A stretch of 51,517 nucleotides of DNA from an uncultured Chlorobiaceae bacterium (lineage in GTDB: Bacteria > Bacteroidota > Chlorobiia > Chlorobiales > Chlorobiaceae): NCBI GenBank assembly GCA_903866255.1, contig CAIPMW010000067.1, positions 1 to 51,517 on the forward strand. Direction: 5' to 3'. Under the pieces are notes generated by a model. It did no database searches. It had not been told where the DNA came from and saw only the letters and a program-made list of their open reading frames with translations. This document shows, piece after piece, positions 8,759 through 51,440 of this stretch. The first letter of the stretch is position 1. Each line of letters starts with the position of its first letter. Position numbers and translations under genes: made by a program.

Positions 8759-9922
8759 ATGAGCGTTCTCTATCTTGATCGCACAATAGCCGAGGATGTT
8801 CGGCTTGGGCTGAAAAACAACCCGGTTACGGCGGTTGTGGGGCCTCGACAGTGTGGCAAGTCTACCCTGATCAGGCATCTGGTCTCTTATGATCGGCCGT
8901 TCCTCTATCTTGATCTTGAACGTCCTTCCGATTTGCGGAAGCTCGATGACCCCGAATGGTTTTTGCAGCATCAGCGGGGAAAGCTGGTTTGCATCGACGA
9001 GGTGCAACGGCGGCCGGAGCTTTTTCCCCTGATTCGAAGTCTGGTGGACGAATGGGGTGGTAATGGTCATTTTCTGATTCTCGGATCGGCTTCACGTGAT
9101 CTGCTGATGCAGAGTTCCGAGTCGCTTGCCGGACGAATCACCTACAAGCGGTTGACTCCGTTTTTGTGGGAAAAGGTAAAGGAGCGGGTGATAATCGAGG
9201 AGTATCTTGCACGCGGAGGGTTTCCGAAAAGCCTGCTGCAGGAAGAGGAGCAGGTGTCGTTCGGATGGCGGGAGGATTTTATCACGAGCTTTCTTGAGCG
9301 TGATCTGTTGCAATGGAGCGGGTTCTCCCCGGCAACGATGCGTCGTCTCTGGCAGATGCTCGCTCACAATAACGGTCAGATGGTAAACCTCTCCTCCATT
9401 GGCGGTTCCCTTGGAGTAAGCCATACCACGGTAAGGAATTATCTTGATCTTTTACAACAGACCTTCATGGTGTGCCTGTTGCCGCCATTGATGTCGAATA
9501 TTGGTAAACGAGTTGTCAAATCGCCAAAGGTGTATGTGGCCGATACCGGTATTGTCGCCGCTTTGCTTGGGCTTGTTGATTTCAACCGGATTGCCGGGCA
9601 TCCGGTATTTGGCTCACTTTGGGAAACTCTGGTGATGATCAACATTCAGGGAATGTATCCGGGCTGCGGGCTTTATTATTATCGCACGGTCAACGGTGCC
9701 GAAGTGGATATCGTCATGGAGCAGTCGGGCAAGCGTTTTGCCATAGAGTGCAAGGCCTCCGCTGCTCCGGTTCTGACAAAGGGGAACCGGTCGGCAATTG
9801 TTGACATAGCCCCTCTACACACTTTTGTCGTGGCTCCTCTTGAGAAGGGGTATGCATTAGCGCCAGGCATCTCGGTTGTGGGTCTGTCGGAACTGCTCGA
9901 CGAGATCGGAAAGCTTCTGTGA
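8759..9922 (+). CDS. AAA ATPase with C-terminal DUF4143 domain
   Basis: Protein of 387 residues. The N-terminal AAA_14 domain has Walker A GPRQCGKST (residues 28-36) and Walker B LVCIDEVQ (76-83), followed by 'LILGSASRDL' (sensor region). A winged-helix-like part 'GGSLGVSHTTVRNYLDLL' lies near 222. The C-terminal DUF4143 domain contains 'AEVDIVMEQ..RFAIECKAS', the D-(x)n-ExK arrangement of a nuclease-like fold. The family is common, often in accessory regions, and its role is not established. Complete, with no frame problems. It converges on trpB2 across a strong hairpin. Confidence 0.88.
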   Translation: MSVLYLDRTIAEDVRLGLKNNPVTAVVGPRQCGKSTLIRHLVSYDRPFLYLDLERPSDLRKLDDPEWFLQHQRGKLVCIDEVQRRPELFPLIRSLVDEWGGNGHFLILGSASRDLLMQSSESLAGRITYKRLTPFLWEKVKERVIIEEYLARGGFPKSLLQEEEQVSFGWREDFITSFLERDLLQWSGFSPATMRRLWQMLAHNNGQMVNLSSIGGSLGVSHTTVRNYLDLLQQTFMVCLLPPLMSNIGKRVVKSPKVYVADTGIVAALLGLVDFNRIAGHPVFGSLWETLVMINIQGMYPGCGLYYYRTVNGAEVDIVMEQSGKRFAIECKASAAPVLTKGNRSAIVDIAPLHTFVVAPLEKGYALAPGISVVGLSELLDEIGKLL

Positions 9923-44701: not shown

Positions 44702-46591
44702 ATGCTTAAAAAAATCCTGACAAGAATCACTGACCGTAACCTATGGCCCCGCAACTGGTGGTATCCTGGGCCCAAAAAGGATAACCGTCATGCTGATGTG
44801 GTCAAGATGCTGCATGAGAGCCATTCAAAAGCGATCAATAAAACCATGCTCTCGCTGCTTGGTGTCGGCTTGTACAGTCTGCTGGCGGTGGTTGGCTCAC
44901 CCGACAAGTCGCTGATTGCCACCAACAGCTCCATTCAAACACCACTGGTTGGCACCTCAATCTCTTTTCAGGGTTTTCTGATTGTCTCGCCCTTTCTTCT
45001 TGTCATCCTGACCGTCTATCTTCACATCCTGTATGGCAAATGGCTGCGGCTTGAAACAAAGCGAGAAGATCTGAACAAAGAGCCAGCGAACGCCGGTGAG
45101 CCAACCATTGAGAGTGTTCCAGCCATTTTCAGTTTTAGCGACCGTCTGCCCCGGTTTGTCACCACCTTTATCTTTTACTGGTTTGTGCCGTTGATCTTGT
45201 GCGTCATGGCCTCCAAGGCGTTCGCTCTCAAAGAGTTGATTCGCCCTATGTTTTATGTCGCCTCTGTCGTGACACTTGCTCTTCTTTTTTTGCGGATTAA
45301 TCGTTGTCCCGAAAGGAAACGGTTCTGGCGAAATGCTCCGCGCTGGATACTTCTCGCACTGCTTGTTGCGTTTATGGGTTATTTTCCCTCTGTTTCCGAC
45401 TCATTCCGCAGGCCACTGAATCTCCAGCGGGAAGATCTTCATGAAGCCTGGCTGCAAGGGCTGGATTTGACCGGCGCTGATATGAGTAATGCCAATCTGA
45501 AAGGGGCAAACCTCAGCGGTGCTATTCTTCAAAAAGCACATCTTGATGAAGCCAATTTGCTCGATGCTGATCTCAGAACGGCAAAACTTCAGGCTGCCTC
45601 CCTTAACAAAGCCAATCTTCAGAAAGCAAAGCTGACCTTCGCCGATTTTGAGGAAGCCGACCTCACGTTAGCGACTTTTACTGGTGCGACTCTCCAGAAT
45701 ACCAATTTTCAGAGTGCTGATATCAGGTATGCCAATTTCAGGGATTTCGTAAAAGAAGGAGAGTTTGATTCCCATCGGCTCAAATATGCCCAAAATTGGG
45801 AAAAGGCGTTTTACAGCAGTGAGTTGCTTGCAGCTCTCAAGCTGCCAAAAAGCCACAATGATGACCTGAACAAGGATTGGGACAAAACGTATGCTGAAGT
45901 GGAGCACTATCAATCGGAGAATAGTTTTCAAAACCTTCTCAAGGCAGGGTATCGAGTGGTTGAGCATCACGTCAAAAAGAATTTTCAAATGGTTAAGCGT
46001 TGGTTGAATATCGATGATAAGGGTACGGTTCCTGTCGTGGATGTTGGTGATGAGTATGGCGGCGGGATAGTTGCTTATCTCTTCCAGCCAGGCGACAAGG
46101 GTTACAATAAAAATAAACAGCATGGGCTGATTGCTGCCAAATCAGATATCCAGATCAATTACACCGATGCGTGGGGCTATGGGGATCAAAAGGATTCTTT
46201 TCGATGGAGCACGGGAGAAACGGGAAAAGAGGGTAACGCTGATTATGCCTGGCAGGAACTTCTCAACACCAGTACACGGTTAGGTGAAGGTGCGGCCAAT
46301 ACTGATAAAATATTGGCGAAGTATCCGTCGGAAAAGTATCCCTATACTGCGGCGGCAGTGGCGAGAGCATATCGTGGCGGAGGTTTTGATGACTGGTATT
46401 TGCCGAGCAAAAGGGAACTTAATAAGCTTTTTTACGTCAAAAGTGCTGTTGGCGGTTTTTCTGACGGCGGCTACTGGAGTTCTACGGAGAGCGGTGCGGT
46501 CGGCGCGTGGAACCAGTACTTCTACATTGGCAGCCAGGGCGGCAGCAGCAAGGACCACGCATGGCGAGTTCGGGCTGTGCGGGCTTTTTAA
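44702..46591 (+). CDS. DGR target 1: membrane protein with pentapeptide repeats and variable C-terminal domain
   Basis: Protein of 629 residues. About five hydrophobic spans lie in residues 38-225 (for example 'GFLIVSPFLLVILTVYLHIL', 'FVTTFIFYWFVPLILCVMA', 'WILLALLVAFMGYF'). Pentapeptide repeats (A(D/N)LxxA type: 'GADMSNANLKGANLSGAIL') run from about 258 to 345. A helical linker leads to a DUF1566/C-type-lectin-like domain from about 440 ('VGDEYGGGIVAYLF', 'HGLIAAKSD', 'FDDWYLPSKRELNKLF'), ending in VR1 (residues 581-629) with 'WRVRAVRAF' at the C terminus. Placement at the head of the retroelement makes it the main diversified product. The ligand is unknown. Confidence 0.88.
   Translation: MLKKILTRITDRNLWPRNWWYPGPKKDNRHADVVKMLHESHSKAINKTMLSLLGVGLYSLLAVVGSPDKSLIATNSSIQTPLVGTSISFQGFLIVSPFLLVILTVYLHILYGKWLRLETKREDLNKEPANAGEPTIESVPAIFSFSDRLPRFVTTFIFYWFVPLILCVMASKAFALKELIRPMFYVASVVTLALLFLRINRCPERKRFWRNAPRWILLALLVAFMGYFPSVSDSFRRPLNLQREDLHEAWLQGLDLTGADMSNANLKGANLSGAILQKAHLDEANLLDADLRTAKLQAASLNKANLQKAKLTFADFEEADLTLATFTGATLQNTNFQSADIRYANFRDFVKEGEFDSHRLKYAQNWEKAFYSSELLAALKLPKSHNDDLNKDWDKTYAEVEHYQSENSFQNLLKAGYRVVEHHVKKNFQMVKRWLNIDDKGTVPVVDVGDEYGGGIVAYLFQPGDKGYNKNKQHGLIAAKSDIQINYTDAWGYGDQKDSFRWSTGETGKEGNADYAWQELLNTSTRLGEGAANTDKILAKYPSEKYPYTAAAVARAYRGGGFDDWYLPSKRELNKLFYVKSAVGGFSDGGYWSSTESGAVGAWNQYFYIGSQGGSSKDHAWRVRAVRAF
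46442..46588 (+). repeat. DGR variable repeat VR1
   Basis: 147 bases at the 3' end of target gene 1, colinear with the template repeat at 47164-47310. By hand alignment, 24 of the template's 47 adenines are replaced (by G, T or C) and every other base is identical, except one G-to-C difference in the second-last codon. The unchanged 3' part, ending GCTGTGCGGG, would be the initiation-of-mutagenic-homing region. Most template AAC codons have become Gly, Ser, Tyr, Val, Asp or His. Confidence 0.95.
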
Positions 46592-46623
46592 CCATTTATC
46601 TATTCAACAATTAAGGGGGTACC

Positions 46624-46638
46624 GGGGGCAGCGCCCCC
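46624..46638. other. DGR hairpin downstream of VR1
   Basis: Stem GGGGGC/GCCCCC with loop AGC, beginning 35 bases after the end of VR1. It has no T-run behind it, so it is not a terminator. An equivalent hairpin with a different loop follows VR2 at the same distance. In the Bordetella phage DGR a hairpin or cruciform just behind the VR is needed for efficient target recognition; a like role is inferred. Confidence 0.65.
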
Positions 46639-46659
46639 AGTCAAAAAATATTTTGGATT

Positions 46660-47013
46660 ATGGCGCTTTACTATGATTTACCAGTGTATCGTGATGTCTA
46701 TCGTCTGATCCTGAAAATCGTTGAGTACACCAAAGATTTTCCACGTGAGTACAAATACTCGCTTGGCCAGGATCTAAAGCACGACAGTATTGTGCTGGTG
46801 CGCAGCATCTACAGGGCCAACAAAGCCAAAAGCAAGACCGAGTATCTTGAAGTATTTCTTGACGATTTTGAAATCCTTAAACTGGAGGTGCGCTTATGTG
46901 TTGACCTGAAAATTCTGCCCATGAAAAAGCAGGCCGAGATTACCGGTCTCATGGATGGAATTGGTAAACAAATTACCGGATGGCGTAATGCCGGGTCGGT
47001 GAAAGGTGCCTGA
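46660..47013 (+). CDS. avd: DGR accessory variability determinant (four-helix bundle)
   Basis: Protein of 117 residues, helical throughout: 'YYDLPVYRDVYRLILKIVEYTKDFPREYKYSLGQDLK' then 'SIVLVRSIYRANKAKSKTEYLEVFLDDFEILKLEVRLCVDL' and a last helix with 'IGKQITGW'. This matches Avd/four-helix-bundle proteins, basic pentamers that bind the reverse transcriptase and template RNA and are needed for mutagenic homing. Place between VR1 and the template repeat is the same as in the Bordetella phage element. A shortened second copy lies at 50652. Confidence 0.92.
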   Translation: MALYYDLPVYRDVYRLILKIVEYTKDFPREYKYSLGQDLKHDSIVLVRSIYRANKAKSKTEYLEVFLDDFEILKLEVRLCVDLKILPMKKQAEITGLMDGIGKQITGWRNAGSVKGA

Positions 47014-47163
47014 ATTCCGTCGGTCAAGGCTGTCGGAAGCGAGCAGAGCTTCGTTCAAAAGCGGCAAAGAGACTGTGTGCCGATCAGTGAAACTTCAAGA
47101 TCGGGGGGCAGTAAAAGAAAATGTATCGGAAACGCTTTTGGTGCATGTCAACATCTTTGCGAG

Positions 47164-47310
47164 AGTGCTGTTGGCGGTTTTTCTGACAACAACTACTGGA
47201 GTTCTACGGAGAACGATGCAAACAACGCGTGGAACCAGAACTTCAACAATGGCAACCAGAACAACAACAACAAGAACAACACATGGCGAGTTCGGGCTGT
47301 GCGGGGTTTT
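47164..47310 (+). repeat. DGR template repeat (TR)
   Basis: 147 bases, non-varying master copy for the variable repeats. In the VR frame it reads as 49 codons with 15 AAC and one AAT, the usual adenine-rich design giving maximal diversity when A is mutated. It begins AGTGCTGTTGGCGG and ends GTGCGGGGTTTT. It lies 150 bases behind avd and 51 before the RT start. The stretch 47014-47163 between avd and TR holds no gene and is probably part of the template RNA, which is transcribed with flanks. Confidence 0.95.
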
Positions 47311-47361
47311 GAACAAGCAGTTGTATCGCCCGGATGGAATTATCTCTGGGCGGTATGCATT

Positions 47362-48621
47362 ATGACGGACAACACATCGTTGCAACTCGAATTGTTTCCC
47401 TTTTCAGCCCCAATTCCTCTTGTTGATCTTTTTGAGGCTTATGAAGGCTGTCGCCGACACAAGCGAAATACGGTCAATGCCATAGCTTTTGAACTCGACT
47501 ATGAACAAAATCTTGTTGAGCTTTGTTACGAAATTAATAATGGCAGTTACCAGCCGGGGAAGTCAATCGCCTTTATTGTTGAGCGACCAGTCAAGCGTGA
47601 AATATTTGCCGCTGACTTTCGTGACCGCGTTGTTCATCACCTCATCATCAATAAACTGAATGCCCTTTTTGAAAAAGAGTTTATTGGCGACAGTTACTCT
47701 TGCCGGAAAGGAAAAGGTACGCATAAAGGAATAAAGCGTCTGGATGGCTTTATCCGCCAGTGCTCACAAAACTATAGCCGCGACTGCTGGATTTTAAAGC
47801 TTGATATCAAAGGCTTTTTCATGAGCATCGATCGTCAGCGTCTTTACTATCGTCTGGAACTGTTCATCAATAATAATTATCACGCTCCTGATCGTCCTCT
47901 CCTGCTCGATCTTTGTCGAAAAGTGGTTTTTTACGATCCTGCAGCTAATTGTATTATCAAAGGGAAACGCTCAAACTGGAAGGGCTTGCCTGACGACAAA
48001 AGTCTTTTTCACTCTCGCCCGGGATGCGGCTTACCCATTGGCAACCTGACCAGCCAGGTGTTTGCCAACTTCTACCTTAACTCGTTTGATCATTTTATGA
48101 AACACACCCTTGGGTTGCGATACTATGGTCGTTACGTTGATGATGGAGTTGCGGTACATCAGAATCCTGTTTTTCTGAACTCATTGCTGCCAGTCATTCG
48201 TGCTTATCTGCAGCAGGAGCTTGGGTTGATACTGCATCCAAAAAAAATATTTCTTGAGCATTACACCCGGGGAGTCAAGTATCTTGGAGTTGTTATCAAG
48301 CCTCGCAGAATTTATGTCGCCAACCGTACAAAAGGCAATATGTACCGCGCTCTTTTAAAGTATAACCGGATAGCGCAAACGCATAAACCCTGGCATGCCG
48401 AGCGTACAGCCTTCCAGAGCAGTATCAACTCCTATCTCGGCTTGATGAAACATTATCATACATACTCCCTCCGTCGTTCCATGTTGCGCAAGCATCTTTC
48501 GCCCTGGTGGCTGAGGCTGGCCAAGGCAAATGCCCGGCTTGAAAAATTCACGCTCAAAATAAGGCCGCGCCGGTCAAAGAGAGGTCGATTCTCGAAAAAG
48601 CAACGGCTCAAGCGTGTATGA
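47362..48621 (+). CDS. DGR reverse transcriptase
   Basis: Protein of 419 residues from ATG 47362 (MTDNTSLQL). It copies the template RNA with errors at adenines. RT motifs: 'LKLDIKGFF' with the first catalytic Asp at 148, 'LPIGNLTSQVFANFYLN' (from 224, the [L/I]GxxxSQ motif typical of DGR enzymes) and 'YVDD' (258-261). It ends in an unusually basic tail 'RPRRSKRGRFSKKQRLKR'. No maturase or endonuclease domain, so not a group II intron RT. The frame is open upstream through the whole TR to 47077. Confidence 0.95.
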   Translation: MTDNTSLQLELFPFSAPIPLVDLFEAYEGCRRHKRNTVNAIAFELDYEQNLVELCYEINNGSYQPGKSIAFIVERPVKREIFAADFRDRVVHHLIINKLNALFEKEFIGDSYSCRKGKGTHKGIKRLDGFIRQCSQNYSRDCWILKLDIKGFFMSIDRQRLYYRLELFINNNYHAPDRPLLLDLCRKVVFYDPAANCIIKGKRSNWKGLPDDKSLFHSRPGCGLPIGNLTSQVFANFYLNSFDHFMKHTLGLRYYGRYVDDGVAVHQNPVFLNSLLPVIRAYLQQELGLILHPKKIFLEHYTRGVKYLGVVIKPRRIYVANRTKGNMYRALLKYNRIAQTHKPWHAERTAFQSSINSYLGLMKHYHTYSLRRSMLRKHLSPWWLRLAKANARLEKFTLKIRPRRSKRGRFSKKQRLKRV

Positions 48622-48648: not shown

Positions 48649-48843
48649 ATGAAAAGGGAGCAAACTCCATGCTCCTTGGCTTTTTGGAATGCTATATTAA
48701 GGATTCCACCGGCAAATCGTCTTGGAAAGCTCTCGGGTAAAAACAAAGATTTTTACAGCATAGGGATTAACGATCAATGGAGAATCATCTTCAAATGGGC
48801 AGACGGAAATGCCTCCGAAGCAGAAATTATTGACTATCACTGA
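48649..48843 (+). CDS. HigB-type toxin, N-terminally shortened
   Basis: Protein of 64 residues with the C-terminal two thirds of HigB/RelE toxins: 'IPPANRLGKLSGKNKDFYSIGINDQWRIIFKW' then 'EIIDYH'. Intact family members have ~92 residues; the first ~35 (two helices) are replaced by an unrelated 'MKREQTPCSLAFWNA'. It is probably inactive, although the mRNA-binding strands and terminal His remain. One base separates its stop from the start of higA. It begins 27 bases after the RT stop. Confidence 0.65.
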   Translation: MKREQTPCSLAFWNAILRIPPANRLGKLSGKNKDFYSIGINDQWRIIFKWADGNASEAEIIDYH

Positions 48844-48844
48844 A

Positions 48845-49147
48845 ATGAACGAACTCAGAAATATTCATCCGGGAGAGGTCTTGATGGAGGAGTTTTTAAT
48901 TCCACTGGAGATCTCTGCGTACCGGCTTTCCAAAGATATCGGGATTCCTCAGACCCGGATATCCGGGATAGTGAAAGGGAAGAGACGTGTTACCGCTGAC
49001 ACGGCATTGCGCCTTTCACAATATTTTGGTAATTCCGCAAAGTTCTGGTTAGGTCTGCAAGATGACTATGACCTTGAGGAGGGGATGCAGATCAAGAGAG
49101 AAGCAATACATTCTATTCTTCGCTACAAGAGCAGCATGATGGCATAA
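48845..49147 (+). CDS. higA: HigA-type antitoxin
   Basis: Protein of 100 residues from ATG 48845 (MNELRNIHPG). 'IHPGEVLMEEFLIPLEISAYRLSKDIGIPQTRISGIVKGKRRVTADTALRLSQYFG' is the HigA/VapI helix-turn-helix pattern, followed by 'FWLGLQDDYDL'. It looks intact and complete. A longer in-frame start at 48809 lies inside the toxin gene and is unlikely. As it can bind DNA it may still regulate this locus even if the toxin is dead. Confidence 0.9.
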   Translation: MNELRNIHPGEVLMEEFLIPLEISAYRLSKDIGIPQTRISGIVKGKRRVTADTALRLSQYFGNSAKFWLGLQDDYDLEEGMQIKREAIHSILRYKSSMMA

Positions 49148-49220
49148 AAATAAGGTAAATGACTATATTCCCTGCAACTGTTCACAGGGTTCCTGCCCGA
49201 TAAAAAATTGATACCGATTC

Positions 49221-50543
49221 ATGCCCGATATTTTTATCAGCTACGCCCACGAGGATCAGGAGCGTATCAGGCCAATAGTTCAAGAGCTTGAAAAACGTTG
49301 GAGTGTTTTTTGGGACAAAAAGATTCCGCCAGGGAAAACATGGGAGGACTCCATTGGCAAAGCGTTGGAAGAGTCGCCCTGTGTTCTTGTTGTCTGGTCG
49401 CACTCTTCTGTAAAGTCAGATTGGGTTAAAGAGGAGGCGGACGTGGCCAAGAAAAGGGATACTTTTGTGCCTCTTTTTCTTGACAAGGTTGAACCGCCAA
49501 TGGGATTTCGGAGGATTCATGCAGCGGATCTCTCTGACTGGAAAAACAACAACGCTCATCAGGGATTTCAGTTACTCATTGGCGCGATTGAATCCAAAAT
49601 TTCTCCTGCAACACAGCCTGTTACAGACTCCCGACCGGTGTCAATGCCGGACACGGTTTCATTAGAGGGTGCCGGGCACACATCACCACAACGCAAGCCG
49701 GAGCGGCAACCGATTGGAAACGTAAGCTGGGTTCAAAAAAACCAGCTTGTAATAGTTGTTGCTGTAGTGATGCTGGTTATACTTGGCGTTGTCTGGAGTA
49801 TGAAACAGCCACAGTCAAAAGTTGAACCTAAACCTGCGCCCATCGCTGAGGTAGTAAAAGGAAATCCTGAGGCAGAAGCCCCTCGAAAAGCGGAGGCGGC
49901 ACGGTTGAAGGCAGAGCAAGATGCGGCCACTCGTCGTGAAGCTGAAGCCGCAAAGGCAAGGCAAGATGCAGATGCTCGTCGAAAAGCGGAGGATGCGCGT
50001 TTGGCTGCGGCGAAAGATGCTGTATCTCGTCGTGCAGCAGAAGCCGCAAAGGCAAAGCAGGACGCAGAAGCTCTTCGAAAAGAAGAAGCTCGGTTGAAGG
50101 CAGAGAAAGATGTGGCTCGTCGCGAGGCGAAAGCAAAGGAAAAGTTGGACGCAGATGCTCGCCGCGAAGCGGCAGTGGTAAAGTCTCGACAAGAAGCCGA
50201 AGCGAAAAAAACGCTTAAAATCGGTGACGAATATGGAGGTGGAAAAATTTTCTCGCTCGATCCTACAGGCCAGCACGGACTGATTGCGGCGAAAGCGGAT
50301 TTATCAGGTCACTCTGAGGGTAAATCTGAAGGGCGGTTTACATGGGAAGATGCGAAAGCAAAATGCGCAGCCCTCGGTGGTGGGTGGCGTTTGCCGAGTA
50401 AAAGTGAACTCAATGACCCTTATCACGCTAAAAGTGCTGTTGGCGGTTTTTCCGGCGGCGGCTACTGGAGTTCTACGGAGGACAGTGCGGATGGCGCCTG
50501 GGCGTCAGTACTTCGGCAGTGGCTACCAGGGCAACGACGGTAA
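49221..50543 (+). CDS. DGR target 2: TIR - transmembrane - coiled coil - DUF1566 receptor-like protein (frameshifted end)
   Basis: Protein of 440 residues. The TIR domain (1-130) starts 'PDIFISYAHEDQERIRPIV', has 'CVLVVWSHSSVKSDWVKEEADVA' with Glu71 at the position of the NADase catalytic Glu, then 'FVPLFLD'. A single span 'LVIVVAVVMLVILGVVW' lies at about 175-193 with basic residues before it (N-terminus inside). Residues ~210-330 are an Ala/Lys/Glu/Arg coiled coil, TolA-like. From 332 comes a DUF1566-like domain ('KIGDEYGGGKIF', 'QHGLIAAKAD', 'GGGWRLPSKSEL') ending in VR2. An extra base near 50502-50505 shifts the frame; without it the protein would run to 50583 and end in VRAVRAF like target 1. 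Confidence 0.9.
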   Translation: MPDIFISYAHEDQERIRPIVQELEKRWSVFWDKKIPPGKTWEDSIGKALEESPCVLVVWSHSSVKSDWVKEEADVAKKRDTFVPLFLDKVEPPMGFRRIHAADLSDWKNNNAHQGFQLLIGAIESKISPATQPVTDSRPVSMPDTVSLEGAGHTSPQRKPERQPIGNVSWVQKNQLVIVVAVVMLVILGVVWSMKQPQSKVEPKPAPIAEVVKGNPEAEAPRKAEAARLKAEQDAATRREAEAAKARQDADARRKAEDARLAAAKDAVSRRAAEAAKAKQDAEALRKEEARLKAEKDVARREAKAKEKLDADARREAAVVKSRQEAEAKKTLKIGDEYGGGKIFSLDPTGQHGLIAAKADLSGHSEGKSEGRFTWEDAKAKCAALGGGWRLPSKSELNDPYHAKSAVGGFSGGGYWSSTEDSADGAWASVLRQWLPGQRR

Positions 50544-50580
50544 GAGTTTCGGGGGGTGTGTTCGGGCGGTGCGGGCTTTT
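50433..50580 (+). repeat. DGR variable repeat VR2, diverged and frameshifted
   Basis: 148 bases at the end of the TIR gene aligning with the template over its full length, with one inserted base at about 50502-50505 (TGGGCGTCAG against TGGAACCAG). Many template adenines differ, but so do about ten other bases (for example TCT/TCC, GCG/GCC, TGGCGA/GGGTGT near the 3' end). The 3' end GTGCGGGCTTTTTAA matches VR1. It is an old or poorly served target rather than a freshly diversified one. Confidence 0.88.
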
Positions 50581-50615
50581 TAACCATTTATCTATTCAAC
50601 AATTAAGGGGGTACC

Positions 50616-50630
50616 GGGGGCAAAGCCCCC
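50616..50630. other. DGR hairpin downstream of VR2
   Basis: Stem GGGGGC/GCCCCC with loop AAA, 35 bases behind VR2, matching the VR1 hairpin in stem and position but with a different loop. The flanking ~90 bases are nearly the same as those behind VR1, so both descend from one duplicated segment. Confidence 0.65.
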
Positions 50631-50651
50631 AGTCGAAAAATATTTTGGATT

Positions 50652-50813
50652 ATGGTGCTCTACTATGATTTCAACGTCATCTGTTGTCTGATCCTGAAAA
50701 TCGTTGAGTACACCAAAGATTTCCCGCAAAAGTACAAATCCATTCTTGGTCAGGAACTCAAGCAAGATCGCCCGAGAGTGTACAATTTTGCCATACATGG
50801 GGATAAAAAGTGA
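50652..50813 (+). pseudogene. Truncated second copy of avd
   Basis: ATG at 50652 opens 53 codons. The first ~39 follow avd closely ('LILKIVEYTKDFP' identical; 'YKSILGQELKQD' against 'YKYSLGQDLKHD'), with a two-codon deletion near codon 10. After codon 39 the sequence switches to an unrelated 'RPRVYNFAIHGDKK' and stops. Two thirds of Avd are missing, so it cannot form the four-helix bundle. It shows a second DGR cassette once followed VR2. Confidence 0.85.
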
Positions 50814-50962
50814 AAATCAAACAACTGGATATTGAGGGCTTTCGTTCGCTCCGAAACGTATCATGGATGCCCGGCGATCTCAATGTGATTATCGGCACTA
50901 ATGGCACCGGCAAGTCATCATCAATCCTCAACTTGCGGAAGAGTGCGGGAGAATTGACGTGA
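50810..50962 (+). pseudogene. N-terminal fragment of an AAA/RecF-type ATPase
   Basis: From GTG 50810: 'KIKQLDIEGFRSLRNVSW', then 'LNVIIGTNGTGKSS' with a full Walker A, then after a few codons an unrelated end and stop at 50960-50962. This is the standard beginning of OLD/RecF/SMC-like ATPases (AAA_21/AAA_23), many of them phage-defence proteins. All later motifs are missing. The break lies at about 50925, where the minus-strand DUF2281 gene begins to overlap. Confidence 0.65.
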
Positions 50963-51148
50963 TGGAATGATAACATCTTCAGCATTCAAGCCTTTAAAGT
51001 GCTCTTGAATATGTTTGGCAAGATTCCCTGATTTTGACGTGCCGGTTGATTTTTTCTGCTTTAAGAATTCAGCAAAATCCAGCACTTCATGAAGCATCGG
51101 TTCTGGAAGTTTTTGCATCGTTCGGTATATTTTCTCTGCTGCTGTCAT
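50921..51148 (-). CDS. DUF2281 family protein, putative antitoxin-like
   Basis: Protein of 75 residues from ATG 51148, six bases after AGGGA; an ATG at 51163 would add five residues. 'MTAAEKIYRTMQKLPEPMLHEVLDFAEFLKQKK' is the DUF2281 pattern, seen in small proteins often encoded beside PIN or RelE toxins. The C-terminal part overlaps the ATPase fragment and may be altered. The toxin that would follow on the minus strand is absent. Confidence 0.7.
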   Translation of the reverse strand: MTAAEKIYRTMQKLPEPMLHEVLDFAEFLKQKKSTGTSKSGNLAKHIQEHFKGLNAEDVIIPSRQFSRTLPQVED

Positions 51149-51181
51149 TGATTCCCTCTGCATTGCGCTCTCTCTGGCACC

Positions 51182-51440
51182 TTATGAGAGATCTTTCGCA
51201 ATTTCCAGCCGATATTTCTCGTCCGTTGACATCCGTTGCATGTTTTTGTTGATCTTTTCCAGCCAAACTATTGTTTCATCCCATTGGAACTCCTCCGATT
51301 GCTTGCTGATAATATGGGGCTGAGATGGCACCGGTATGGTGTCTTTGGTGCTGCATGAGTATTCCGTGTCGCGGGTAACCTGATTTCCCGAGAGAAATAT
51401 AACGATGAAAGAAATATCTTTATAAAATAAAATACGTTAC
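51182..51440 (-). other. Possible C-terminal gene fragment near the window end
   Basis: On the minus strand a frame without a clear ATG runs from about 51440 to a stop at 51182-51184. It shows a hydrophobic stretch 'ISFIVIFLSG' and a helical end 'WDETIVWLEKINKNMQRM' then 'EKYRLEIAKDLS'. I do not recognise it. It could be a small secreted protein with a non-ATG start or a truncated gene. 51441-51517 is AT-rich with nothing further seen. Confidence 0.25.

Follow-up and report, generated by a model that had tools for sequence, protein, structure and literature searches.

The window analyzed here, the whole 51,517-nucleotide contig CAIPMW010000067.1 of GenBank assembly GCA_903866255.1, comes from an uncultured Chlorobiaceae bacterium and carries a 147-bp gene end (variable repeat VR1, 46442-46588) that recurs shortly downstream (template repeat TR, 47164-47310) with changes almost confined to adenines. 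This raises the questions of whether a diversity-generating retroelement (DGR) rewrites target genes at this locus, and whether its single TR accounts for both VRs beside it. VR1 and TR were aligned without gaps from the start of the homology at AGTGCTGTTGG to its end within the last few bases, and 25 of the 147 positions differed. Counted by template base, 24 of the differences fell on adenine (19 A>G, 4 A>T and 1 A>C) and one on G (G>C), with no change at any template C or T; the non-A template positions numbered 100. As TR contains 47 A among its 147 bases, the hypergeometric probability that 24 or more of the 25 differences lie on A is ~1.4e-13. Fourteen of the 15 AAC codons of TR were changed in VR1, Asn24 alone being kept according to both translations, and the single G/C difference, which lies five bases before the end, belongs to codon 48 of 49. 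The preliminary description had reported 24 changes, all at TR adenines, one unchanged AAC codon of 15 and a lone G/C exception in the second-last codon, and every one of these counts was reproduced; it had named several substitutions at template C, G or T as the contrary outcome, and one, at G, was found.

A query of the whole genome (2.8 Mb) with TR returned five places, namely TR itself, VR1, a further repeat at 50433-50580 (VR2) and two weaker homologs on other contigs. The features of the locus are listed below, where L028 denotes a locus in a relative.

44702..46591, forward strand: target gene 1, 629 aa, with four hydrophobic segments (hydropathy), pentapeptide repeats (Pfam Pentapeptide, 1.3e-22) and a C-terminal Lcl_C domain (1e-08) containing VR1
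46442..46588, forward strand: VR1, with 25 differences from TR, 24 of them at TR adenines
46624..46638, forward strand: GC-rich inverted repeat GGGGGC-AGC-GCCCCC 3' of VR1, a possible target-recognition hairpin; the longer motif has just two copies in the genome, one behind VR1 and one behind VR2
46660..47013, forward strand: bAvd accessory protein, 117 aa (PF22296, 6.6e-18)
47164..47310, forward strand: TR, with most A at variable sites kept across ten loci
47362..48621, forward strand: DGR reverse transcriptase (RT), 419 aa, with IGNLTSQ and YVDD motifs (PF00078, 9.4e-19)
48649..48843, forward strand: HigB-like toxin, first gene of a toxin-antitoxin pair that separates RT from target 2, no DGR part (PF05015, 2.9e-13)
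48809..49147, forward strand: HigA-like antitoxin with HTH, no DGR part (PF01381, 5.6e-08)
49221..50543, forward strand: target gene 2, with TIR (TIR_2, 1.9e-24), one hydrophobic segment (hydropathy), coiled-coil-like repeats and Lcl_C (partial, 5.5e-4), the frame being broken inside VR2
50433..50580, forward strand: VR2, with one inserted base, fitting the L028 TR and not the local TR
50616..50630, forward strand: GC-rich inverted repeat GGGGGC-AAA-GCCCCC 3' of VR2 (motif search of the genome)
50653..50767, forward strand: copy of the bAvd 5' end 3' of VR2 (direct repeats D1 and D5)

The bAvd protein scored 65.6 bits against PF22296, above the cut-off of 40, and 64.3 bits against NCBIfam DivGenRetAVD, under the curated cut-off of 80. 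VR1 occupies the 3' end of an Lcl_C-encoding gene; the Lcl_C profile matched PDB 8q4e (2.4e-21), and the domain presumably adopts a lectin fold. An AlphaFold2 prediction of the VR1 Lcl_C domain from 15 sequences gave a low-confidence model (mean pLDDT 41), and the coiled coil of target 2 was judged by eye from its sequence. The closest solved relative of the RT was PDB 8ub7_A (3.5e-31), which we take to be the RT of the BPP-1 DGR. YVDD was present and the (I/V/L)GxxxSQ motif appeared as IGNLTSQ, the SQ motif being given as a hallmark of DGR RTs in the available text of the 2012 DiGReF catalogue (PMC3521204). TR lies inside an open frame (47077-48621) that continues into RT and matches the frame of the target's VR. 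The DNA of the HigBA-like pair (48649-49147) is conserved in several relatives. Judging from its sequence, the bAvd 5'-end copy is a remnant of a duplication of the VR-hairpin-bAvd unit.

We regard it as very nearly certain that the locus is a chromosomal DGR of a green sulfur bacterium (Chlorobiaceae) whose TR rewrites VR1, with an L028-like TR as the last template of VR2, itself probably imported with its cassette by recombination. In this model the RT, together with bAvd, would reverse transcribe TR RNA and presumably make errors at template adenines. The cDNA would then overwrite the Lcl_C-domain gene upstream at its 3' end (VR1), stopping just before the terminal G/C (IMH* to IMH), and the DGR is presumably still active. 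At the sequence level, this explanation and the mutagenic retrohoming proposed in the preliminary description are supported by the complete anatomy with its adjoining machinery (bAvd, DGR-type RT and Lcl_C target), adenine-only differences that also occur in related genomes, TR-specific changes in cognate VRs, a constant terminal G/C and a hairpin after VRs only. Counting against it are the 12 non-A differences and the gap of VR2, hairpin loops that are not GRNA, the sub-cut-off NCBIfam Avd score, the broken VR frames and the pLDDT of 41. We give hardly any credence to a reading without reverse transcription, in which a gene end was simply duplicated and its copies, VR1 and TR, came to differ through drift or through A-directed mutation by the host. 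Although the VR-hairpin-bAvd unit did duplicate in this locus, drift would have struck C, G and T as well as A, the pattern is repeated in 16 of 18 VRs across ten loci, and bAvd and a DGR-type RT are adjacent. A phage origin was also considered and rejected: a scan of IMG/VR yielded three pattern matches, none confirmed as encoding a relative, and 105 matches in phage records were all below 60% identity.

Among relatives, 11 loci were found, 10 of them in Chlorobiaceae; nine carried a TR and, together with the window, made up ten TR-bearing loci. L035 was without a TR in the stretch examined and was left out of the TR set. Its segment 5750-5896, a candidate TR, was rejected and is read as a VR because it has the VR-type C at its end and is located in a kinase-Lcl_C gene. 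When the 18 VRs of the ten loci were compared with the TR of their own locus, 16 differed at 14-24 A-positions and 1-2 non-A positions, with 1-3 gap columns in four of these 16. The exceptions were VR2 of the window (29 A, 12 non-A and one gap) and a VR of L029 at 9158-9307 (17 A, 21 non-A and three gap columns). The latter fitted none of the ten TRs and resembled the kinase-linked repeats of L035; it is possibly a second foreign-written VR. In the pooled set of 17 pairs, comprising the 16 own-matched VRs and VR2 set on the L028 TR, with the L035 row and the L029 VR at 9158 omitted, 343 of 744 A were changed versus 26 of 1760 non-A positions, and 17 of those 26 were the terminal G/C.

In the five loci compared, TRs were 92% identical to each other whereas VR1s were 77% identical, and at sites distinguishing one TR from another the same changes were present in the VRs of the same genome. 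Since the VRs carry the TR-specific changes of their own genome, the direction is from TR to VR and copying went on after the TRs had diverged. The preliminary description had also called the rewriting of VR1 recent. This holds in a relative sense, because genome-specific TR changes are already found in the own VRs and rewriting therefore outpaces TR drift, but it carries no absolute date. Each of the three L027 VRs, like VR2, had an interrupted reading frame. Frame-breaking indels were observed in the window at 50433-50580, in L027 at 969, 5070 and 9042, and in L035 at 3270; those placed on a TR were at or near template adenines. Such VR indels would go back to slippage of the RT or else to misassembly at hypervariable sites.

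The 3' boundary of transfer was equally regular. The terminal mismatch (TR has G, VR has C) lies five bases from the end and was constant in 18 of 18 VRs, as befits the IMH/IMH* site at which the preliminary description had placed it. Within the final 26 bases, every further TR variant was shared by the VR in the 16 own-matched cases, save for one A-position in L029. A constant terminal G/C next to agreeing upstream variants implies that transfer stops between the two, which is how an IMH should behave. A perfect hairpin followed 18 of 20 VRs (including two of L035) and none of the ten TRs, and the stem was imperfect after both VRs of L029. The hairpin begins ~35 nt after the VR and has a loop of 3-4 nt, in contrast to the 4-nt GRNA loops at 4-34 bp reported for phage DGRs.

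VR2, to which the finding of the preliminary description does not extend, breaks the adenine rule of the VR1/TR pair when set against the local TR. Against the L028 TR, in comparison, it showed 24 A differences, 2 non-A differences and 1 gap. The local and L028 TRs differ at 17 sites. VR2 shows the base of the L028 TR there, or a base that may have arisen by mutation of an L028 A, and at the non-A sites among them VR1 agrees with the local TR. Of the 12 non-A mismatches between VR2 and the local TR, a table count assigned 10 to an L028 TR base or to an A of the L028 TR. VR2 thereby looks as if it was written by an L028-like TR. Comparison with L027 in 200-bp blocks gave 88-94% identity over the RT region and 98.9-100% for most blocks from 49001 to 51400, with lower values at 49801-50000 (89.5%), the VR2 block (88.9%) and 50601-50800 (96.5%). 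Two housekeeping genes were 91% and 92% identical to those of G023, taken as the L027 genome, and RT and bAvd stood at about the same level relative to their relatives (~91%). The target-2 cassette looks recently exchanged, because most of its blocks are ~99-100% identical to L027 while RT and housekeeping genes are at ~91%. VR2 differed from the corresponding L027 VR at 20 A-positions and 3 others. Unless the contig is chimeric, VR2 was probably written elsewhere and brought in with its cassette by recombination.

Such a chimera, a contig or bin assembled from two strains that occur together, with TR and VR2 perhaps from different cells, is rather unlikely in our estimation. The jump in identity to L027/L028 near 49000 is abrupt and near the contig end; because the contig ends at 51517, ~2.5 kb past the jump, TR and VR2 may sit in separate cells. 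Metagenome assembly of hypervariable repeats is, moreover, error-prone. Nevertheless, the order RT-HigBA-TIR target is identical in L027, L028 and L034, and identity in the 3' region is uneven, as the 89.5% block illustrates. We find it more doubtful still that VR2 stems from an earlier TR of the same lineage and that the TR-RT part was later replaced by recombination while target 2 stayed. The fit of VR2 to an L028-like TR would suit this order of events, but RT and bAvd resemble the housekeeping genes in their identity to relatives and only the target-2 cassette reaches 99-100% (in most blocks), so the anomalous piece is the cassette and not the TR-RT part. Drift of a dead target away from the local TR is very improbable, even though one inserted base breaks the VR2 frame: the L028 TR explains 10 of the 12 non-A mismatches, and the 200-bp block preceding VR2 is 100% identical to L027, which leaves little time for drift. 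With import of a foreign-written VR2 as the preferred reading, the local TR would never have rewritten it since. More generally, and here our confidence falls just short of even, cassettes with ready-written VRs may move between Chlorobiaceae strains, each VR still bearing the bases typical of its latest template and so recording its origin. Non-A mismatches to a neighboring TR could then mean a foreign template rather than decay, and a local mismatch on the IMH side may block rewriting of an imported VR.

Chlorobium phaeobacteroides DSM 266 and Pelodictyon phaeoclathratiforme BU-1 are Chlorobiaceae too. Their DGRs are listed with 2 and 4 VRs, respectively, in the accessible part of the DiGReF catalogue (PMC3521204), so this kind of element was already known; like the present one they have, by the catalogue description, several VRs beside one RT. 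One VR of BU-1 is reported there outside any ORF, and VRs fitting the TR of another strain are not discussed in the catalogue text at hand. The Bordetella phage BPP-1 DGR, as described in excerpts, shares TR, VR, Avd, RT and an inverted repeat after the VR (PMC3240598) as well as the AAC-rich template (PMC12875486), but is phage-borne whereas this DGR is cellular. The foreign-template reading of VR2 may be the new part, as a literature search over titles and abstract openings returned none on VRs written by a foreign TR. The DGR itself is ordinary but unusually clean, with 16 VRs fitting their own TR and two misfits within one genus; such a set lets the rewriting boundary, adenine use per codon and target exchange between strains be read from sequence. 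If VR2 was foreign-written and shares one cell with the local TR, DGR catalogues that take non-A mismatches as decay need a second look.

In the targets, Lcl_C was joined to TIR, to a protein kinase (in L035 and, by frame reading, in a homolog on contig C87) or to a pentapeptide/membrane part. The protein appears to be of a surface type with its tip diversified by the DGR. The Lcl_C face would bind ligands, and the N-terminal parts (TIR, kinase or pentapeptide/membrane) would signal or execute the response; the tip thus likely has a recognition role, in defence or cell contact. The kinase-like gene with Lcl_C on contig C87 of G000, the genome of the window (L004/L049), has a VR-like end without a hairpin and is perhaps a former target. 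A second DGR of this genome, on contig C9 of G000 (L048, 5351-5443 and 6005-6097), comprises a NACHT-FGE-sulfatase target, bAvd, TR and RT, and 13 of its 13 TR/VR differences fall on A. The target domain make-up and the contig C9 DGR match the putative antigen sensors of PMC10907252, whose authors state that the role is untested. Those systems of multicellular bacteria are described there as joining a C-terminal lectin-fold VR domain to TIR, kinase, NACHT or membrane parts, and they share with the locus described here more than one target per locus, duplication and domain shuffling. The present locus departs from them in its Lcl_C-type VR domain and in the repeats of target 1, which are of the pentapeptide type, a word that does not occur in PMC10907252.

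Adenine use depended on the codon in the 17 pairs. Changes were found at 297 of 479 adenines in AAC/AAT and at the third base of 11 of 30 GCA codons, and at 0 of 34 adenines in CAG, 0 of 21 in GAG, 0 of 18 in TAC and 1 of 50 in AGT. Such a pattern may reflect selection that preserves the YWSSTE core, but the sequence context of the RT is confounded with it. The A>N spectra differed strongly among VRs (chi-square 106.7, P 6e-10); wide variation between individual VRs is already stated in the available text of PMC3521204.
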